The position numbers and the translations under genes are program-made. The notes beneath the pieces are model-generated. The model did not search any database. It was not told the DNA's origin and was given only the letters and a program-made list of their open reading frames with translations. DNA of 49,966 nucleotides from Anaerolineae bacterium (GTDB lineage Bacteria; Chloroflexota; Anaerolineae; Aggregatilineales; UBA3940): the NCBI GenBank assembly GCA_016926255.1, contig JAFGOY010000016.1:1-49966 (forward strand). The letters run 5' to 3'. Of the stretch, positions 21,579-38,354 are shown in pieces (the first letter of the stretch is position 1; each line of letters opens with the position of its first letter).

Positions 21579-24017
21579 CTAGTCAGCGGCGACGGTTTCG
21601 CCAGCGCTGAACGCTTCAGCAGTCTCGTCATCGACGAGATGGACTTCACGGTCGGAGCGGGAAACCGCCCAGAGAATGGCGGCGATACCGACGACGATGA
21701 TCGCACCGGTGACCCAGTTGATGACGTTGTACTCGACGACAATCGGGGCCATGATCAGGCCGACCATGTTCATCACCTTGAGCATCGGGTTGAGCGCCGG
21801 GCCGGAAGTGTCCTTCAGCGGGTCGCCGACGATGTCGCCGACGATGGAGGCGTCGTGATTGGCGCTGCCCTTGCCACCGTAGTGGCCGTCTTCGACGTAC
21901 TTCTTGGCATTGTCCCACGCGCCGCCAGCGTTCGCCATGAAGATGGCAAGCGAAGCGCCGCTGACGATGATACCGGCCAGGAACGCGCCGAGGCCCTGCT
22001 CCTTGAGCAGCAGGCCGATGACAATCGGGGCGACGACCGCGATCAGGCCCAGCGGGATTAACTCGGTCTGGGCAGCGCGGGTGCTGATGGAAACGGCTTT
22101 CTTGTAGTCAGGACGCTCTTTGCCTTCCCAGACGGCGGGAATGCGCAGTTGGCGGCGAACTTCGGTCATCATCTGCGAAGCGGCGCGGTTGACGGCCTTG
22201 ATCAACAGGCCGCCGAACAACAGCGGCAGGATACCACCAATCAAGAGGCCGACGAACACGGTCGGGTTGGTCAGGTTGACGACTTCTGTAAACACGCCTC
22301 GGTCGGCGGGCCAGACGCGCTTGATATCGGTGAAGAACGCGCCGTAGAGCGACAGTGTCGCGATAACGGCTGAACCAATTGCCACACCCTTGGTGATGGC
22401 CTTGGTGGTGTTCCCGGCGGCGTCGAGTGCGGTCAATATCCGGCGCTGCTCGTCTTCCATCCCGGCGACTTCGCCGATGCCGTTAGCATTGTCGGAGATG
22501 GGGCCGAAGGTGTCCATCGACACGTTGTTGCCGGTGTGTGAGAGCATGCCGACGCCGATCATCGAGACGCCGAACAGGATGTAGGTGAAGGAGTTGTTGG
22601 CAACAGGCTGCATCTCGTAGAGGAAGAAGCCCAGCACCAGCGTCCACATCATGAAGATCAGGCCGTCGATCCAGGACTTTTTACGCACCCACTGGTAGAT
22701 ACCGCCGATGACCGCAGCGGCAATCGCCACGTAGAGCACAATCGGACGGATGGAGTCGGGCAGGCCAACCGAGTAGATCACAATCGAGGAGGCGATGCCG
22801 AGCACGATGACCATCATGGACCACACGCTGGAGAGATAGCCCAGGCTCAAACCTTCAAGGATGACCAGCGCCGGGCCGAAGCGGGTTGCTGCGGCGATGT
22901 GCTGGACGCGCTTGCTTTCCCACGAGGTGGCGAGTGCGGTTAGCGGGTTGAAGGCCACGGCCAGCGCCACGCCGATGGCATTGAGGACGCCCATGCGCAT
23001 GTCGCCAGCGTAGAAGTAAGAAATCAGGAGTGCCGAGGTGATCGTAATCGCGCTCGACAGTTCGTAGCTCTTGAACATCGCGTCTTCTGCGTCGATATTC
23101 TTCCAGAGCGACACTGCATAAGTTCCGATGATCGAGCTGATGACACCCACGCCGCGAATGAGCAGCGGGATGATGATCCAGACCAGTTCCCCGGTGATGG
23201 CATTCAGCGCCAGACCGAGGATCAGGCTGGAGACGACAGTCACCTCGTAGCTTTCGAAGATGTCGGCGGCCATGCCTGCGCAGTCGCCAACATTGTCACC
23301 GACCAGGTCGGCGATGACGGCGGCGTTGCGGGGGTCGTCTTCTTCCATACCGGCCTCGACCTTACCAACCAGGTCGGCGCCGACGTCGGCAGCCTTGGTG
23401 AAGATACCGCCGCCCACGCGCATGAACAGCGCGATCAGCGTACCGCCGAAGCCGAAGCCCAGCAGCACGTCGGGTGAGGCCTCACCGAAGATAATGAAAA
23501 TCAGGGTGCCACCGAGCAGCCCCAGGCCGTCGGTGAGCATACCGGTGATGGTGCCGGAGCGGTAGGCGATCTTCAGGGCCTCGGTGTAGCTGACGCGAGA
23601 AGCTTCAGCCACGCGGACATTGCCCTGTACTGCCATGTTCATACCCAGGAAACCGACTGTTGCCGAGAAGGTAGAACCCATGAAGAAGGCGGCTGCGCGC
23701 GCAATCGCGACGACTGTACGTGCGCGGTCGCCGAACAGTTCCTGGGCTTCCGGTGTTGGCCGGACGAGCGACACGCTCAGGTACATCAGCACGGTGAGGA
23801 CGACGATCAGGATGGCAATGGTTTTGAACTGCGTGCCCAGATAGGCATTCGCGCCGTCCTTGATGTCGCGCCAGACTTCCTGCATCTTTTCCGAGCCTTT
23901 GGGATAGCTCAGAATCTGGCGGGCCAGCAGGCCAGCATAGGCGAGAGCGAGAATGGCGGTGCCGAAAACGGCCCAGACCATCGCGTTCTCAAATGGGGTT
24001 ATGTTCATATACTGCAT
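21579..24017 (-). CDS. hppA: membrane-bound proton-translocating pyrophosphatase, K+-independent type
   Basis: An 812-aa integral membrane enzyme that couples hydrolysis of pyrophosphate to ion pumping. The substrate-binding core DVGADLVGKVEAGMEEDDP is at about 211-229, DNVGDCAGMAADIFESY at 241-257, and the second acidic cluster is near the C-terminus (GDIVGDPLKDTSGPALNP). At about 535-544 GNTTKAITKG has Lys539, and Thr three residues after it, the signature of potassium-independent H+-PPases; potassium-dependent ones have Ala. Longer than usual because of extra hydrophobic sequence at about 395-490. ATG 24017 follows GGGAGA. Proton rather than sodium pumping is inferred. Confidence 0.96.
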   Translation of the reverse strand: MQYMNITPFENAMVWAVFGTAILALAYAGLLARQILSYPKGSEKMQEVWRDIKDGANAYLGTQFKTIAILIVVLTVLMYLSVSLVRPTPEAQELFGDRARTVVAIARAAAFFMGSTFSATVGFLGMNMAVQGNVRVAEASRVSYTEALKIAYRSGTITGMLTDGLGLLGGTLIFIIFGEASPDVLLGFGFGGTLIALFMRVGGGIFTKAADVGADLVGKVEAGMEEDDPRNAAVIADLVGDNVGDCAGMAADIFESYEVTVVSSLILGLALNAITGELVWIIIPLLIRGVGVISSIIGTYAVSLWKNIDAEDAMFKSYELSSAITITSALLISYFYAGDMRMGVLNAIGVALAVAFNPLTALATSWESKRVQHIAAATRFGPALVILEGLSLGYLSSVWSMMVIVLGIASSIVIYSVGLPDSIRPIVLYVAIAAAVIGGIYQWVRKKSWIDGLIFMMWTLVLGFFLYEMQPVANNSFTYILFGVSMIGVGMLSHTGNNVSMDTFGPISDNANGIGEVAGMEDEQRRILTALDAAGNTTKAITKGVAIGSAVIATLSLYGAFFTDIKRVWPADRGVFTEVVNLTNPTVFVGLLIGGILPLLFGGLLIKAVNRAASQMMTEVRRQLRIPAVWEGKERPDYKKAVSISTRAAQTELIPLGLIAVVAPIVIGLLLKEQGLGAFLAGIIVSGASLAIFMANAGGAWDNAKKYVEDGHYGGKGSANHDASIVGDIVGDPLKDTSGPALNPMLKVMNMVGLIMAPIVVEYNVINWVTGAIIVVGIAAILWAVSRSDREVHLVDDETAEAFSAGETVAAD

Positions 24018-24574: not shown

Positions 24575-24612
24575 TTTTGCAACAAAACAGCCACCCTCAA
24601 TGGGTGGCTGTT
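24575..24612 (-). terminator. terminator of the PP2C-SUMF1 gene
   Basis: ACAGCCACC and GGGTGGCTGT pair around a short loop (24587-24612) and are followed by TTTGTTGC on the minus strand, 28 nt beyond the stop codon. Confidence 0.87.
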
Positions 24613-24639: not shown

Positions 24640-26973
24640 CTACGGGATCGGGGTAGTTTCCTCAGTCGGTTCTTCGGCGGCGGGCTGCTCCTCATCGGTG
24701 GCAGCGGCGGCGGGCGCTTCCTCTTCGACCGGGGCGGCGGGCGTCTCTGCGCCGTTGACGCTCTGCGCGCAGCGGAACCCCACCCACGATGCGCCGGTAT
24801 CCTCCGGAACGTCGTAGCGATGGCCTGACCGGGCGAACGGCGAAAGCGACTGGAAGCTGCCGCCGCGCACCACGCGGAACGGCTCATCGAAGGGCTGGTC
24901 GCCGATCCGCACCGGGTCGAGAGTGCCCAGGCCCTCGTAGGAGCCGAAATACCAGTCCTGCACCCATTCGCTGGCGTTTCCGGCCATGCCCAGCACACCG
25001 GTCGGACTGAGGTCACGCGCAAAGGCTTCGACCGCGCTCAGACCACCCAACCCGGCGGAGAAGGTGTTGGCGCGGCCTTCCTCGAATTCGTTGCCCCAGG
25101 GATACCAGTACGATGCCCCTGTCGCCGGGTCGTAGCGGGCGGCTTTCTCCCACTCGGCTTCGGTGGGCAGGCGCTTGCCGAGCCAACTACAGTAGGTCGT
25201 CGCCTGTTCGTAGGTCACATAAACTACCGGGTGGCGGGCAAACGCGGCATCGACGAAGAACTCGGTGTTCGAGGGCGGTGTGCAGGTTTCAGACAGCACA
25301 CAGTCGGCGTAGGCTTCGTTGGTCACCTCGGTAATGTCGATATAGAACTCGCGCAGCGTCACGTCCTCGACCGGTTTGGCGTCGGCGAAATATTCTGGAT
25401 AGCAGATCGTATTGTCTTCTGCTTCCTCGATGCAGGCGAGCGTCGCCTCGGTTGCCTCTTCGTCGGTAACCCCGCGTGTGAACGATCCGCCCGGCACGAG
25501 CACCATGTTGGGCGGCGCGGGCGCGGTGGTCGGAACCGGCTCCGCCGTCGGCTCTTCGACGGCAGGAGGTTCTGTTGCCGGGATCGACGTCGGCACGGTG
25601 ATCACCGTCGGTGTGACATCGACCGGGACAACTTCGCCGACCGGGGCTTCATCCCCACCGCCGAACGGAAGCTGCCAGTCGAAGGGATTTGTCAGGAACA
25701 GCACCAGCAGAAGGACGATCACCACCGTCCCTGCGCCGATGGCAGCAAACGTGCCGATGGTCATCCCGCTGCCACGCCGGGGCGTGCGGAGTGATGGCTG
25801 TGAGGGTGGTTGATAAACGCGCGGCTGGTACCCGGCGGGCTGCCCGACCTGTTGAGTCGGTGCCTGGACGGGCACGGGCGGCAGGCCCGTTTCCGGGTCG
25901 ATGGAGTAGCCAGGGGGCACGCTGATCGGTGTGGGTATGGTCACCGCCGCTGGCTGTGTTGGTGGTTCTGGTGGCAGTGGGGCATCCGGCGCGACCGTCT
26001 CGCCCTGGTAGGTCGGCGCGGGCCTGACCTCCGGCTGGTAGGTTGGCGCAGTCTCGGTTTTGACCCCGTTCGCAGGTGCCTCAACACGTTTGGCCCGGAT
26101 GGTCTTGTCGGCCACTTCTTTGGCTTCGGAACGCGATACGGCCATTGTCGGCTGTTCATCGAAGGAAGGGATTCCACCGTCCCAGGTATGGGGCAGGTCG
26201 CTGACCGCCGGTGGCGCGCCGTCTCTAATCAGCGCAGTGATCACCGTAATATTATCTTTGCCGCCCCGGTCGGTGGCTTTCTGAATGAGCATCTCGGCGG
26301 CGTTTCGCGGCGACAGGTTGGCGACAACATTGGCGATCTCGTCATCGTGCATCACGCTGCTCAGGCCGTCGGTGCAGATTACCAGCGCATCGTCAGGCTG
26401 CAGGCGCAGGTCGAAAACGTCGATGTTGATCGTCTCCTCGGTGCCCAGCGTGCGCAGCATCACGTCGCGCCGGGGATGATCTTCGGCCTCTTCCGCCGAT
26501 ATCGCCCCTTCGTCGAGAAGCTGCTGAACGAGCGTGTGGTCGCGGGTCACCCGCTCGACTGCGCCGTCGCGGATCAGGTAGGCGCGGCATCCGCCCACCG
26601 AAGCGACGTGGCATTGTTCGCCGCGAACCGCCGCCGCGACGACCGTCGCTCCCAGCTTGACCAGTTCGGGGCGCTGCTTGGTGTAGGCAAACAGATCGGC
26701 ATTGGCCGCCGATACCGCTTCGCGGAGGCGCAGGCCCAGGTCAGGCTCGTCGCTCGTGTAGTAGGTGTGGATGATCTTCTGCGCCGCGTAGCGGGAGGCC
26801 ATCCGGCCCCGTTCCCCGCCGCCCTGCCCATCGGCGACCACGTACAGGCTCCCCGAAAAACGCCGCGCGGCCTCGTCGGTGGGCTGGTGGATCAGGACGA
26901 AATCTTCGTTGTCATCGGCAAGCCCGGTATCGGTCACTGGCCAGGCTTCCACCGTCATTTTTGAAGGACTCAT
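24640..26973 (-). CDS. PP2C-type Ser/Thr phosphatase fused to extracytoplasmic SUMF1-like domain
   Basis: 777 aa. Residues ~10-250 are a PP2C phosphatase: DDNEDF (21-25 region), VVADGQGGG (45-53), TDGLSS (201-206) and DNITVI (240-245) supply the metal-binding aspartates. A proline-rich linker (250-400) leads to one membrane helix at about 405-428. A second Pro/Thr linker is followed by a SUMF1/FGE-like domain (490-738) with VPGGSFTRG, RLPTEAEWEKAARY, YPWGN, ASEWVQDWY and RVVRGGSF, then an acidic tail. The cysteines used by true formylglycine-generating enzyme after RGGS are missing, so it is more likely a sensor or carbohydrate-binding domain. It would antagonise the Ser/Thr kinase seen elsewhere in the window. 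Confidence 0.93.
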   Translation of the reverse strand: MSPSKMTVEAWPVTDTGLADDNEDFVLIHQPTDEAARRFSGSLYVVADGQGGGERGRMASRYAAQKIIHTYYTSDEPDLGLRLREAVSAANADLFAYTKQRPELVKLGATVVAAAVRGEQCHVASVGGCRAYLIRDGAVERVTRDHTLVQQLLDEGAISAEEAEDHPRRDVMLRTLGTEETINIDVFDLRLQPDDALVICTDGLSSVMHDDEIANVVANLSPRNAAEMLIQKATDRGGKDNITVITALIRDGAPPAVSDLPHTWDGGIPSFDEQPTMAVSRSEAKEVADKTIRAKRVEAPANGVKTETAPTYQPEVRPAPTYQGETVAPDAPLPPEPPTQPAAVTIPTPISVPPGYSIDPETGLPPVPVQAPTQQVGQPAGYQPRVYQPPSQPSLRTPRRGSGMTIGTFAAIGAGTVVIVLLLVLFLTNPFDWQLPFGGGDEAPVGEVVPVDVTPTVITVPTSIPATEPPAVEEPTAEPVPTTAPAPPNMVLVPGGSFTRGVTDEEATEATLACIEEAEDNTICYPEYFADAKPVEDVTLREFYIDITEVTNEAYADCVLSETCTPPSNTEFFVDAAFARHPVVYVTYEQATTYCSWLGKRLPTEAEWEKAARYDPATGASYWYPWGNEFEEGRANTFSAGLGGLSAVEAFARDLSPTGVLGMAGNASEWVQDWYFGSYEGLGTLDPVRIGDQPFDEPFRVVRGGSFQSLSPFARSGHRYDVPEDTGASWVGFRCAQSVNGAETPAAPVEEEAPAAAATDEEQPAAEEPTEETTPIP

Positions 26974-33371: not shown

Positions 33372-33943
33372 TTCAGCGTTTCCATACTTTCGACGATCCC
33401 CTGGTAGATCGGCAGGTTCGTATCGAAAGTCTGTCGCGAATAATCAGAGGCGAAAACCAGGATCGCCTGGTTTTGCTGCATCACCACGCCAATAAACTCG
33501 CCCTCATTGAAATTCTCGTCGTACCCAAAGGCGCAGATCGCGTCGCCGGCGGCGGACTGCAGCGGTCTGGTTTCGTAGGGGATGTCGTAGAGCACATACG
33601 ACAGTTCGGTGATGATGTCTTCGAGTAGCTGTGTCTTGTTCATGCCGGGGGTAAACGTCATCTCCCAGTATTCGGGGGCGGTGGTTTCGTCAAACAGGTA
33701 TATCTCGATATAGCCTTCGCCAGCTATCTCGAATATGTCGAAATTGTCGTAGTCATACCAGCTGATCTCCCAGCCGTTGGGCCGGTAGGTACTGATGTTC
33801 ATGTCCCCATTGTCGTAGCGCAGCCCGCTGCCGGGCACGCCCGCCGATGGCTCTGCGCTGCTGCCCAGGCCGGGAACGCTGCATGCCAGTGTCGATATGA
33901 TCAGGACTGCCAGTGCTACGATCCATATCTTCCGTTTGCTCAC
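33368..33943 (-). CDS. lipoprotein translationally coupled to the Ser/Thr kinase
   Basis: 191 aa starting at GTG 33943, which overlaps the kinase stop in GTGA; GGGAG lies upstream. The frame is open further back but only inside the kinase gene. Signal sequence with lipobox STLAC (Cys about 21). The mature part is small, acidic and aromatic-rich: NGWEISWYDYDNFDIFEIAG, EIYLFDETTAPEYWE and FGYDENFNEGEFIGVVMQQNQAILVFASDY. It resembles small PsbP-like or DUF1795-type lipoproteins only loosely. Coupling to the kinase suggests it may act as accessory sensor or ligand-binding partner. Confidence 0.82.
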   Translation of the reverse strand: MSKRKIWIVALAVLIISTLACSVPGLGSSAEPSAGVPGSGLRYDNGDMNISTYRPNGWEISWYDYDNFDIFEIAGEGYIEIYLFDETTAPEYWEMTFTPGMNKTQLLEDIITELSYVLYDIPYETRPLQSAAGDAICAFGYDENFNEGEFIGVVMQQNQAILVFASDYSRQTFDTNLPIYQGIVESMETLN

Positions 33944-35682
33944 TGTTGATCTCCCTGACTTCTCTGTATCGCATCCCCATCGACGAGCATCCACGAGCCG
34001 TCGGCAGCCAGGGCCACTTCGTACTTTTCCCAGGTCAGGGTTTCGTCGCAGTTGACTGCCTGCATATCCCATTTGCCGCTGGCGATTGCAATGGTGAACT
34101 GCCCGCCGGGTGTAACAACCTGGCCTTCCTCCATTTGATTGAGCGCCCATATCGTGTCATCTGGCGAGGAAACGAAGAATTTGCAGATATTGTAGCTGGT
34201 CTGGTTTTCGAGTGTGAACGTCAGGGCCCTGTCCCGGATCACCCAGCTAAACCAGGGGCCATCGAAAACAACCCCGGCATGAACATCGAGCATGTTGTTG
34301 CCGCAGTCGTCGGCTATATAGTCATATTTACCATAAGGGATATCGGTCAGTGTGTAGGATTCCCCGGTACGGATGACCTCATCTGCGCCAAGCCGGTTGT
34401 CTCCCCATTCGTCGTCGCTGTTCAGTGAAACATACACGGCACAGATCGTCACGCTGCCCTGGTTGACGATCTCCAGCGAGGTCGTTCCCTGATCGACCTC
34501 CGGCGTATCGGTCGGCTGGGGCGGTGACTCCGGCGTCTGGGTCGGAACCGGGGTGGGCGTCGTGTCGAATACCCCCGATGCACCCATGATGAAGAACCCG
34601 CCGACGCAAACTGCCAGCAGGACGAATATCCCGCCGATCACCAGCCCGATGCCGATACTGCACCCGCCGATGGTCACCCGCCTGCCTTTCGGCTGCGGTG
34701 CAACGGCGGCGGTTGGGGGTGGCGTGGCGGGACCTGCCGGGGTATCAACCGGAGGTGGTGTCATAGGAATAGCATCGGTCAATGGGGCGGTCAACCCGGC
34801 GTCGAAGGCCCCGACTGCTTCGCTGCCGCTGGATTCGATCGCCTGCCGCAGCGCCGACGCCAGTTCGCCTGCCGTTTGATAGCGGTTCTCCGGGTCTTTT
34901 GCCATCGCCTGGTTGACCACATGCGCAATCGCCGGAGAAAGCTCCGGCCTGATCATCGAAACGTCGGGCACCGGTTCGTTGACGTGTGCCAGCAGCACGC
35001 TCAGGGGCGTCTCGCCGGAGAAGGGATAGCTGCCGGTGAGCATCTGGAAGAGCGTCACTCCCAGCGCGTAGATGTCCGCCTGGGGCGTCGTCCTGGCGCT
35101 GCTTGCCATCTCCGGAGCCATGTATGCCGGGGTGCCGACGATCCCTGTGCCGGTAAGCTGGATCGTCGATTCGCTGATCTTGGCGATCCCGAAGTCGGCA
35201 AGGTGGGCGTTGCCATGTTCGTCGAGCAGGACATTGCTCGGCTTGAAATCGCGGTGGATCACCCCCTTCGAGTGGGCATGATCCAGCCCTTCGGCGATCT
35301 GCTCGACCATCCGCAGGATTTCGTCGAGCGGCATCGGCCCGGAGGCCATCCGGTCGGCGAGCGTGCCGCCCGACATGTGAGCCATCACGATGTAGGGCCG
35401 CCGGTTGTACTCACCGTAGTCGTAGACCGGGAGAACGCGCGGGTGCTGGAGCTTCGAGATCACCTGCACTTCGCGTTCGAAGCGCTGCATAAAGGTTGCA
35501 TCATGGGTGAAGTTCGGCGGGATGACCTTGATCGCCACCGTCCGCCCGATCGATTTTTGCCGGGCCAGGTAGACGGTCGCCATGCCACCTTTCCCAAGTT
35601 CCCGGATGATCTCGTACTGCCCGATGGTCTGCCCGATCAGTTCATCTTCGTTTGGCTGTGATTGCTCATCGGCCATTTGCAT
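33940..35682 (-). CDS. Hanks-type Ser/Thr protein kinase with duplicated extracellular domain
   Basis: 580 aa from ATG 35682 (a GTG at 35685 and ATG at 35673 are alternatives). The kinase domain covers ~20-285: GKGGMATVYLA, catalytic Lys in AIKVI (about 53), HRDFKPSN (about 144-151), DFG (about 164) and APEM. It is followed by a Pro/Thr linker. A membrane helix lies at about 338-368. The outside part has two similar ~80-residue units (about 402-484 and 487-570). Both carry IV(N/E)..S...IC..(Y/F)VS.., a Trp, G.Y.L/F.I and a second cysteine. A PP2C partner is encoded in the same window, and an FHA histidine kinase is divergent. Confidence 0.95.
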   Translation of the reverse strand: MQMADEQSQPNEDELIGQTIGQYEIIRELGKGGMATVYLARQKSIGRTVAIKVIPPNFTHDATFMQRFEREVQVISKLQHPRVLPVYDYGEYNRRPYIVMAHMSGGTLADRMASGPMPLDEILRMVEQIAEGLDHAHSKGVIHRDFKPSNVLLDEHGNAHLADFGIAKISESTIQLTGTGIVGTPAYMAPEMASSARTTPQADIYALGVTLFQMLTGSYPFSGETPLSVLLAHVNEPVPDVSMIRPELSPAIAHVVNQAMAKDPENRYQTAGELASALRQAIESSGSEAVGAFDAGLTAPLTDAIPMTPPPVDTPAGPATPPPTAAVAPQPKGRRVTIGGCSIGIGLVIGGIFVLLAVCVGGFFIMGASGVFDTTPTPVPTQTPESPPQPTDTPEVDQGTTSLEIVNQGSVTICAVYVSLNSDDEWGDNRLGADEVIRTGESYTLTDIPYGKYDYIADDCGNNMLDVHAGVVFDGPWFSWVIRDRALTFTLENQTSYNICKFFVSSPDDTIWALNQMEEGQVVTPGGQFTIAIASGKWDMQAVNCDETLTWEKYEVALAADGSWMLVDGDAIQRSQGDQQ

Positions 35683-35799
35683 CACCTTTTCCTGGATGTG
35701 GTGGAGATTCCTTCGCGTAACGTTCCTGAGTAGTTTGCATCACACGGCGGCCTGGCGCAAGTGAGAGTGCTGGAGAATCCAGGAAAATGGCTGTGGAAC

Positions 35800-35828
35800 T
35801 TGTCCCCGGTTCAGGCAGGTGCTATAGT
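35800..35828 (+). promoter_or_regulatory. promoter of the FHA histidine kinase gene
   Basis: TTGTCC (35800-35805) and TATAGT (35823-35828) are separated by exactly 17 bp, placing the start point near 35835. This lies inside a possible longer reading frame beginning at 35787 and so supports the ATG at 35886 as the real start. Confidence 0.68.
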
Positions 35829-35885
35829 AAGCAGACCGGGACTACGTATTGCCTTTCAACACGACAGATGGGGAGTAGGTGGAGA

Positions 35886-38354
35886 ATGGCCGGCGATTCA
35901 GATCAACCGCGAAAAACTGTAACCGATCGTCTGACTGCTGAAGACCTCAGGGACATGTCTTTTATCGAGCAGGAGATCACCTTTCGACCGTTTCCGGATG
36001 CCAGACCGCCGGAGGCGAAAAAGGCGATCAACTGGCGGGTGCGCTTCGATCTGGCTACCGATTCCAGCGTCCGCTTTGGCCTCGATATCAACGGTGATGT
36101 CACCCTGGGGCGGGGCGGTGAAACACTCAACACTATCGACCTGTCTCCCTACCGCGCTGACGAATACGGTGTGTCACGTCGGCATGCTATGCTGCGCCCA
36201 TCTTCTACTGCACTCTACCTCGTCGATCTGGGCAGCACCAACGGTACGCTGCGTAACGGCCAGTCGATAGGGGTCAACACGCCGTTTTCGCTCTCGAACG
36301 GCGATACGATTACACTTGGGCGGCTTCAGTTCGTCGTCTGGATCATCGACCGGCCTTCCGGTCGAACCCGTGCGTTGGAGAAAAAGGCCGACCTTGCCGA
36401 TGCGCTGGCGCAGGTTGGTAAGGCGATCACCTCACAGCTCGATCTCGACGCAGTGCTCAATCAGGTCACCGAAGCGGCGATGACGGTCACCGATGCCGGT
36501 GAAACCGGTATCTGGCTGGTCGATGAGGAAACGGGCGAGCTGTTCCTTGAGGCGCAGCACGGGATCGAAGACGAGAAAATCCAGCGCATGCGAATCCCGA
36601 TAAGTGGTGATTCTCTGGCGGCGAAAGTGATCAAGACCGGCAAACCGCTCCGCGCCAGCCGCCAGCCCGGTGAAGCGCAGATCAAAATCAAGACCGGCTA
36701 TCTGGTCGAGGCGCTGCTCTATGTGCCGATCACCCTGGGCGGGGTGACCTTCGGCGTGCTGGCTGCTGCTCACCGGGAGGAGACGGTTGGCTTCAGTGAT
36801 CGCGAACTGCGTCTGCTCGAAGCCATCGCCGATTTCGCCGCGATTGCCATCCAGAATGCACGCACCTACCGCTCGACCGACCAGGCGCTTGCCCGGCGTG
36901 TCGAGGATTTGATGGCCCTCAACGAACTGTCGTTTGCCGTATCGACCTCGCTCGATCTGGACTATATCCACAAGGTGCTGATCGAGAAGCTGCGCGGCTT
37001 GAAAGAGATCGAAAACGCGGTGCTGTGGCTGGTCAATCGAGAGAACGGCAAACTGGAACCCTACAATCAATCCGAACAGATTAGCGAGTTGATCCACCGT
37101 ACCGGTGACCAGATTCCAGATGTTGTCAAAACAGTTGTCGATAAAGAGGCGCCGGTCGTCGCCGGTTTCCTCGATATGGATCAGGCGTTTCAGGAAGCCG
37201 ACGGTCAATCGACTTCCACCGTCAAGGCCAAGTCGCTGGTGGGGCTGCCCTTGCTGGCGAAGGAATCGACCATCGGTGCGCTGGCGCTGATCGCGCGGCG
37301 TGGCGTGATTCAGGATCAGGACCTCGCCCGCTTGCAGGCTTTTGCCAACCCGGTTGCGGTGGCGATTGAGAACGCACGGCTCTATGCCCAGGCCGAATAT
37401 GCCCACGCAACTATCCTTGCCACTGCCGAAACCCTTCCCCAGCCGATGCTGATCCTCGACGACCAGGGCCGGGTGCTGCTTGCCAACCAGTCGGCCAACG
37501 AAATCCTCGAGAAGCATATGTCCCAGCTCTTCGAAGGGATCAGCGAAGGGGTCGGCAGGACAACCGAGATCAAGATCGACAGCAGTACCTACCTGGCGAC
37601 GATTGAACACTCGACGACGGTGGGGACGATTGTGGTGATGCAGGATATTACCTATGTCAAAGAGCTTGAAAAAGAACAGTCCGAGATGGTGCGGGCGCTG
37701 TCGCATGATCTGAAAAGCCCGCTGACGTCGGTCAAGGGTTGGGCGCAGCTCGTCAAGCAGGTTTCTGAGTTGGATGATCGACCGGCGGGGTATGTCGAGC
37801 ATATCATCGATTCTGCCGACCGGATGCTGTCGATGATCTCCTCGCTGCTGACAAGTGCGACGGCCAGCCGGTCGGCCCGGTTTGTGCGTGCGCCATGTGC
37901 TTTAGAAGAAAGCGTAACCAGGGCCATCGCCGACCTGCGCGGCGCGGCGCTTGCCAAGGCAATTTCGGTCGAGATGACCGTCACCGGGATTCCGTACAAG
38001 ATCATCGCCGATTCGAGCCGTCTCTATCATCTGGCGCTTAACCTGGTCGATAACGCGATCAAGTATTCGCCGAAGCATACGACGGTCAACGTTGGCGTGG
38101 CGTATACCAACGCCGGTGTCACATTGTCCGTTGCCGACGAAGGAGAGGGTATTCCGGAGGATGATCTGTCCCGTATTTTCGACCATCACTACCGGAGCGA
38201 GAAGCACTCACACCTGTCGGGGACGGGCGTGGGTCTGACCATCGTCAAGGCGGTTTCTAAGGCCCATGACGGTGACGTGATCGCTGCGAACCGGGCTTCG
38301 GGCGGCGCGATCTTCACTGTGAAGCTGCCCGCCACCCTGCGTTCTGACGAGTAG
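35886..38354 (+). CDS. cytosolic hybrid-domain sensor histidine kinase: FHA-GAF-GAF-PAS-HisKA-HATPase
   Basis: 822 aa. FHA domain at ~55-150 (VTLGRGGET, VSRRHAML, DLGSTNGTLRNG), which binds phosphothreonine. GAF1 ~165-327, GAF2 ~338-500, PAS ~505-590 (ETLPQPMLILDDQGRVLLANQSA). HisKA follows with phosphoacceptor His607 in RALSHDLKSPLTS, then HATPase with N box NLVDNAIKYS (N724), G1 DEGEGIPE and GTGVGLTIVK. No membrane segment is present, so it is soluble. ATG 35886 follows GGGGAG-N10. No response regulator is adjacent. The FHA domain next to a Ser/Thr kinase gene suggests phosphothreonine input. Confidence 0.96.
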   Translation: MAGDSDQPRKTVTDRLTAEDLRDMSFIEQEITFRPFPDARPPEAKKAINWRVRFDLATDSSVRFGLDINGDVTLGRGGETLNTIDLSPYRADEYGVSRRHAMLRPSSTALYLVDLGSTNGTLRNGQSIGVNTPFSLSNGDTITLGRLQFVVWIIDRPSGRTRALEKKADLADALAQVGKAITSQLDLDAVLNQVTEAAMTVTDAGETGIWLVDEETGELFLEAQHGIEDEKIQRMRIPISGDSLAAKVIKTGKPLRASRQPGEAQIKIKTGYLVEALLYVPITLGGVTFGVLAAAHREETVGFSDRELRLLEAIADFAAIAIQNARTYRSTDQALARRVEDLMALNELSFAVSTSLDLDYIHKVLIEKLRGLKEIENAVLWLVNRENGKLEPYNQSEQISELIHRTGDQIPDVVKTVVDKEAPVVAGFLDMDQAFQEADGQSTSTVKAKSLVGLPLLAKESTIGALALIARRGVIQDQDLARLQAFANPVAVAIENARLYAQAEYAHATILATAETLPQPMLILDDQGRVLLANQSANEILEKHMSQLFEGISEGVGRTTEIKIDSSTYLATIEHSTTVGTIVVMQDITYVKELEKEQSEMVRALSHDLKSPLTSVKGWAQLVKQVSELDDRPAGYVEHIIDSADRMLSMISSLLTSATASRSARFVRAPCALEESVTRAIADLRGAALAKAISVEMTVTGIPYKIIADSSRLYHLALNLVDNAIKYSPKHTTVNVGVAYTNAGVTLSVADEGEGIPEDDLSRIFDHHYRSEKHSHLSGTGVGLTIVKAVSKAHDGDVIAANRASGGAIFTVKLPATLRSDE

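Follow-up and report, generated by a model that had tools for sequence, protein, structure and literature searches.

A transmembrane PP2C-FGE receptor of Anaerolineae with an eroding active site and a probable pseudophosphatase role

The receptor gene and its neighbours

The gene described here lies in the window, the whole stretch of 49,966 nucleotides that was analysed, which belongs to an Anaerolineae genome of 4.6 Mb in 82 contigs (96% complete) with ~30 FGE matches. It is a single open reading frame on the reverse strand (24640-26973) that starts with ATG, has no internal stops, and encodes 777 aa. The features of the locus are:

24640..26973 (-), PP2C-like/transmembrane/FGE-fold receptor, 777 aa, from the open reading frame, Pfam and full-length orthologs
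26224..26952 (-), PP2C-fold cytoplasmic domain, ~residues 8-250, with D48, D202 and D240 present, the third-metal Asp changed to G128 and the Arg of R..N.D missing
26587..26592 (-), codons 128-129, GGA TGC (Gly-Cys) in place of the Asp-Ser of GDSR in PP2Cs, from codon reading
25765..26208 (-), proline-rich cytoplasmic linker, probably disordered, ~residues 256-403, from low pLDDT and weaker constraint
25690..25758 (-), transmembrane helix, ~residues 406-428, from hydrophobicity and model
24766..25512 (-), FGE/SUMF1-like outside domain, residues 488-736, with six Cys C-terminal to the helix, from Pfam and alignment
24847..24864 (-), GGSFQS, where Ser stands in place of the first FGE cysteine and the second cysteine is missing just after, from alignment to solved FGEs
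24586..24612 (no strand), hairpin of 11 pairs ~28 bases past the receptor stop, between the receptor and H+-PPase genes, a possible but weakly indicated transcription end (terminator-like sites, 4 found against 3.6 expected)
21579..24017 (-), membrane H+-pyrophosphatase (H+-PPase), a recurrent neighbour downstream of the receptor, from Pfam and synteny
33940..35685 (-), transmembrane Ser/Thr kinase whose outside beta region has two repeats (Pfam Pkinase, 187 bits)

Pfam places FGE-sulfatase at residues 488-736 of the 777-aa protein (160 bits) and PP2C at its N-terminal end (52 bits, best stretch 23-147; PP2C_2, 48.6 bits, 40-218). The only hydrophobic helix peaks at residues 409-427, with three Lys/Arg and no acids before it and three acids and no Lys/Arg after it, a charge pattern that fits a cytoplasmic PP2C and an external FGE domain. 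Pfam and the one helix in a single reading frame thus bear out the domain order PP2C-TM-SUMF1 that had been read from the sequence. The outside part matches the formylglycine-generating enzyme (SUMF1) family, and in alignments RVVRGGSFQSLSPFA takes the place of GGSY-x-C...SYC in solved FGEs; unlike in those enzymes, both cysteines, which we take to be the catalytic pair, are missing. An active FGE was therefore ruled out, and the outside domain is probably a binding domain, in agreement with the sequence-only reading. Directly C-terminal of the PP2C domain, Thr276 (26146-26148) does not vary among the six orthologs, although the rest of the linker is loosely constrained; it is a possible phosphorylation or FHA-binding site.

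A comparison of the outside domain with lectin-type variants of diversity-generating retroelements (DGRs) had also been proposed. No near copy (template repeat) of the 3' part of the FGE region is found in the 96% complete window genome, and other matches to this part, at most ~90 bases long, fit paralogous FGE genes or chance; a DGR-diversified FGE/lectin protein was rejected on the missing template copy. A lone reverse-transcriptase fragment is seen at a contig edge (G000:C52:105-503).

The H+-PPase gene lies downstream of the receptor in the window and in two related genomes, G001 and G008, and on the contig bearing the FGE tail in a third, G005. No H+-PPase match of that kind is found at E <= 1e-60 in G006 and G003, and G002 has the H+-PPase without the receptor. 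Because the 622-base gap between the two genes in the window holds the hairpin, a receptor/H+-PPase operon is not claimed.

The kinase at 33940-35685 has intact VAIK, HRD and DFG motifs, and its outside domain has no solved relative. Orthologs of this kinase follow the H+-PPase in G001 and G008, with 65-68% identity in the kinase domain and 32-33% in the outside part, and these same kinases are the best matches of the window kinase's outside domain in those genomes. No such kinase is seen on the readable flanks of the receptor in G006 and G005. The link between receptor and kinase suggested by the sequence-only reading gains support from two genera, the kinase ortholog lying next to the receptor gene in G001 and G008, which are of one genus and are counted once; the linkage is seen in these two genera only, and in the window the kinase lies 7 kb away on the other side. 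Back to back with this transmembrane Ser/Thr kinase, 35787-38354 encodes an FHA-GAF-histidine kinase, and at this pair phosphothreonine signalling could meet two-component signalling.

The PP2C-FGE fusion in related genomes

Orthologs of the receptor are found in six of nine genomes of the window's family, namely the window genome, G001, G008, G006, G005 and G003. The sample is six proteins, all from metagenome-assembled genomes where the record is named, and the window genome is represented by a single assembly. The G001 ortholog is full-length (54% identity over residues 1-776), and the fusion is uninterrupted in the window, G001 and G008. The G006 halves lie on two contigs that have exactly 99 bases of the gene in common, and in G003 the contig end falls inside it. 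In G005, the PP2C half runs off its contig and another contig starts with the FGE tail followed by the H+-PPase, from which we infer one gene. Since orthologs have the same domain order, shared by three relatives (G001, G008 and G006), a frame error joining two genes, against which the sequence-only reading had cautioned, is ruled out. In G001, the immediate upstream neighbour of the receptor gene (L133, 4730-8164) encodes a large NTPase-like protein with a further FGE domain at its end.

Among 130 PP2C-bearing open reading frames of the fetched loci, PP2C and FGE share a frame in the receptor gene only. A scan of contigs with the single receptor sequence gave no match, and the same scan with the ortholog alignment recovered the ortholog records. 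In overlapping draws of 61, 396 and 400 genomes from the order, class and phylum, no listed frame outside the family has both halves, and a widespread PP2C-FGE fusion was therefore rejected; the two larger draws used E <= 1e-45 and 1e-42, with few candidates scored per genome and the best matches listed, so that a diverged fusion would be missed. FGE is absent from all 34 PP2C frames read, 20 distinct ones from the class (one of 21 rows being a duplicate) and 14 from the phylum, and a plasmid tblastn with the receptor gave 594 matching records, none of which covers 80% of the query. Within the Chloroflexota draws, FGE as the outside part of a PP2C looks restricted to the window's family.

A PP2C with a helix and some other outside tail is common in the sampled Chloroflexota, so a phosphatase that bears an outside domain is nothing out of the ordinary in these genomes, and it is the FGE tail that looks special. 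The domain-architecture search proposed earlier thus divides the original impression: the FGE tail on a PP2C looks confined to the family in these draws, but a phosphatase with an outside domain is not unusual in itself. These relatives resemble the receptor in PP2C, single helix and outside region, and they differ in having canonical metal sites (34/34 distinct frames, with or without tails) and no FGE. By eye, without a family search, some of the tails resemble Ig-like, FHA-bearing or beta-propeller domains. Proteins of ~800 residues with PP2C, a helix and long, perhaps beta-propeller outside parts (L237-L248, phylum Chloroflexota) are frequent in one large-genome family (f78).

Active site, fold and selection of the PP2C domain

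In the six-ortholog alignment, read by codons, the canonical PP2C motifs VADG, CSDG and GKDN appear as VASS, CSNT and IKQG in G001 and as IASG, CSNT and IKQG in G008, the three core metal Asp being changed to Ser, Asn and Gln. The last core Asp (GKDN) is Glu in G005 (GKEN) and His in G003 (GKHN), either of which could still hold a metal. The window protein retains D24, D48, D202 and D240 and has lost the third-metal Asp (VGGCR in place of VGDSR), the Asp that the other five orthologs keep, and every metal Asp is present in G006. A metal-binding Asp is thus lost or changed in five of the six orthologs, and, because the states differ between lineages, at least four separate changes are counted in the alignment. 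The phosphate-binding Arg of R..N.D is missing in 6/6 orthologs and found in 140 of the 148 other PP2Cs that were readable here (6 more were unreadable); six of the eight exceptions have an Arg one residue further off. Loss of the Arg would be a shared first step of the decay.

Elsewhere these positions are nearly constant. Among 118 distinct PP2C domains, six of them from the receptor family, the Asp is kept in 116 at DG, 116 at GDSR, 116 at SDG and 114 at DN, and outside the receptor family one of 112 departs at a metal Asp (L097, Asn at GDSR). The 23 other PP2Cs of the nine family genomes, a set that overlaps in part with the 118, have the core three Asp in 23/23 and the GDSR Asp in 21/23, and canonical metal sites are found in 20/20 distinct near relatives from the class and in 14/14 frames from the phylum. 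By Fisher's test, with relatedness ignored, changes at any of the four Asp positions (5/6 receptors against 2/23 other PP2Cs) give p = 0.001 and changes at the core three (4/6 against 0/23) p = 0.0006. In a tree that used 12 of these 23 PP2Cs, the six orthologs are grouped (100/99), and inside the group only G001 with G008 is resolved.

Overall, the domain remains close to the Stp1/PstP/tPphA type of PP2C/PPM Ser/Thr phosphatases. AlphaFold2 predicts the G001 domain with a pLDDT of 87.7, and VIA-align superposes this model on tPphA with Z 31.8 and an rmsd of 1.5 over 231 residues; for the window PP2C model, Foldseek gives PstP and tPphA as top matches. The PP2C part alone was used from the full-length model because its FGE half is poorly modelled (mean pLDDT 57.6 overall). 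The receptors depart from this type by the FGE outside domain, by the missing Arg and the loss of metal Asp among the orthologs, and by scores for NCBIfam NF033484 (Stp1/IreP PP2C) of 205.4 bits in the window and 160 in G001, below the curated cut-off of 230.

Between G001 and G008, dN/dS is 0.062 for the dead PP2C domain (bootstrap 95% 0.039-0.100; 85% identity, dS 1.3), compared with 0.079 (0.045-0.126) for a live PP2C pair, 0.058 for the FGE domain and 0.058 for the H+-PPase; the cytoplasmic linker is looser (0.176), and all these ratios are rough because dS is 1.1 to 1.9, near saturation. The dead domain has no stops or frame breaks and, in this one comparison, is under purifying selection as strict as that on live PP2C. 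The flap (segment 141-178) is invariant at 25/38 positions in the receptor family, against 70/217 elsewhere in the domain. A live PP2C control group is equally conserved there (27/38, against 81/199 elsewhere), which points to ordinary constraint and not to a special role, and flap conservation was dropped as special evidence; of the two hand-picked live control groups (7 and 6 rows), a clear flap effect is seen in the first only.

Phosphoprotein binding and alternative readings

The loss of catalytic residues by which a pseudophosphatase is recognised is full in G001 and G008 and partial in the window. 'Phosphatase' would thus name a fold in this receptor, although activity in some members is conceivable, given the core Asp of the window protein and all metal Asp of G006. 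A working phosphatase closing a kinase/phosphatase cycle, as the sequence-only reading had envisaged, is not supported, since the catalytic site is partly degraded in the window and wholly in G001 and G008. Instead, the receptor is probably a transmembrane (pseudo)phosphatase that binds a phosphoprotein and hydrolyses it hardly or no longer. The outside FGE-fold domain, being non-enzymatic, would bind a ligand, and the helix and the long proline-rich linker would connect it to the cytoplasmic PP2C fold. That fold may be seen as an enzyme in the course of dying, with the clamp Arg presumably lost first across the family and different metal ligands later in separate lineages. As fold and flap are retained, the domain probably still binds a phosphorylated partner. 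The likeliest partner would be the activation loop of the transmembrane kinase linked to it, or one of that kinase's substrates, which might be held or shielded and not dephosphorylated. A phosphate-trapping role has been suggested for pseudophosphatases (PMC5106787).

The proteins of G001 and G008 are predicted to be fully inactive, pure pseudophosphatases, and the window protein, with its core metal ligands, to be a very slow enzyme or a natural substrate trap. In PPM1B, D151E, a change of the third-metal Asp, is reported to leave no detectable hydrolysis while phosphopeptide binding remains (PMC13142519, preprint). By alignment with tPphA and its variants, GGCR is taken to remove the counterpart of this Asp, and because that change in PPM1B stops hydrolysis and not binding, a trap or slow phosphatase is the best guess for the window.

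A slow but working PP2C, gated by the FGE sensor and lowered in rate by the loss of the Arg and the third metal, is a doubtful alternative for the family. It would fit the metal ligands kept in the window (D48, D202, D240) and in G006 (all), and Arg13 of tPphA is described as assisting substrate binding, its variants being strongly weakened yet retaining reduced activity on phosphopeptides, so that diminished activity is what its authors expect of such homologs (PMC3375153). The requirement for a third metal in bacterial PP2Cs is presented as debated in a survey (PMC12088040). However, the PPM1B result speaks against it, as does the strict retention of the gene in G001 and G008, where the core metal ligands are gone.

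The family genomes also hold two groups of kinase-TM-FGE receptors, type A (678-696 aa) and type B (788-872 aa), the latter extended at the C-terminus. Catalytic residues are kept in all five type A proteins read. Type B is present in 7/9 genomes, one per genome where found, and is degenerate in five: L034 (G000:C35), L023 (G007:C210), L251 (G001:C473), L253 (G008:C27) and L254 (G005:C646). G000 and G007 lack the HRD Asp, the ATP Lys has given way to Arg in G001 and G008 and to Thr in G007, and the catalytic Asn is lost in all five; G002 and G003 are canonical. Degenerate kinases thus make up 5/7 of type B against 0/6 of type A with the window kinase (p = 0.02, relatedness ignored), in a set of 12 kinase+FGE frames plus the window kinase that leaves out L061 and L259 (canonical by eye) and the fragment L263. 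For G001 against G008, dN/dS is 0.054 in the type B kinase domain and 0.056 in type A. Where both FGE receptors are present (five genomes), both are changed in G000, G001, G005 and G008 and PP2C alone in G003, which, in a small and related sample, suggests a joint drift into pseudoenzymes. It could be speculated, tentatively and with the odds against it, that the family signals through a pair of pseudophosphatase-TM-FGE and pseudokinase-TM-FGE receptors whose sites decayed in parallel, passing on the sensing of a ligand by phosphoprotein binding and receptor pairing in place of phosphotransfer, and that the intact transmembrane kinase serves as their effector.

A changed chemistry, such as another metal or phosphoester, is very improbable: His, Glu or Gln in place of Asp could suit another metal, and the dead site of PHLPP2 is reported to hold one zinc (PMC12002173), but the lineages differ at the same place and share no common new site. 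Equally remote, and already disfavoured, is a PP2C relic on its way to loss beside an FGE domain and anchor that alone matter, since the several lineages with lost catalytic residues and the receptor-less H+-PPase of G002 are outweighed by the well-folded model, the unbroken frame, and a dN/dS as low as that of live PP2C at 85% identity and dS 1.3.

The preferred reading, a receptor that binds phosphoprotein, has its nearest parallel in eukaryotes, where PP2C pseudophosphatases are described, so the receptor family would be a bacterial case. Among the eukaryotic proteins, TAB1 acts on TAK1. TAB1 and PHLPP2 likewise keep the PP2C fold with metal ligands lost, and for PHLPP2 a substrate-binding or membrane-scaffolding role has been proposed (PMC12002173); the receptor differs from them in being bacterial and single-pass with an FGE domain, and in showing the loss at several stages among close relatives. 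Literature searches, at the level of listings, returned no bacterial PP2C pseudophosphatase and no PP2C-FGE fusion. A 2025 survey of bacterial PP2Cs counts 119 other domain types, with FGE/SUMF1 unmentioned in its main text (PMC12088040), and FGE is likewise unmentioned in the available text of a bacterial pseudokinase review (PMC12599244). The close orthologs would represent different degrees of catalytic decay, the mildest with every metal ligand in place and the most advanced without any core ligand, in one steadily selected receptor with a parallel on the kinase side, making the transition from enzyme to binding receptor amenable to experiment on a few small bacterial domains. For this family, the annotation 'PP2C phosphatase' appears unsafe.

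Finally, kinase-TM-SUMF1 receptors (types A and B of the family, and ToxD by its PDB title) share with the receptor a cytoplasmic signalling domain, a helix and an FGE-fold outside part, the receptor having a PP2C in place of the kinase. In a Bdellovibrio MAG (L061, 5905-8423), a gene for PP2C alone overlaps with the beginning of a gene for a kinase-TM-FGE protein, an operon pairing of PP2C and FGE receptor.
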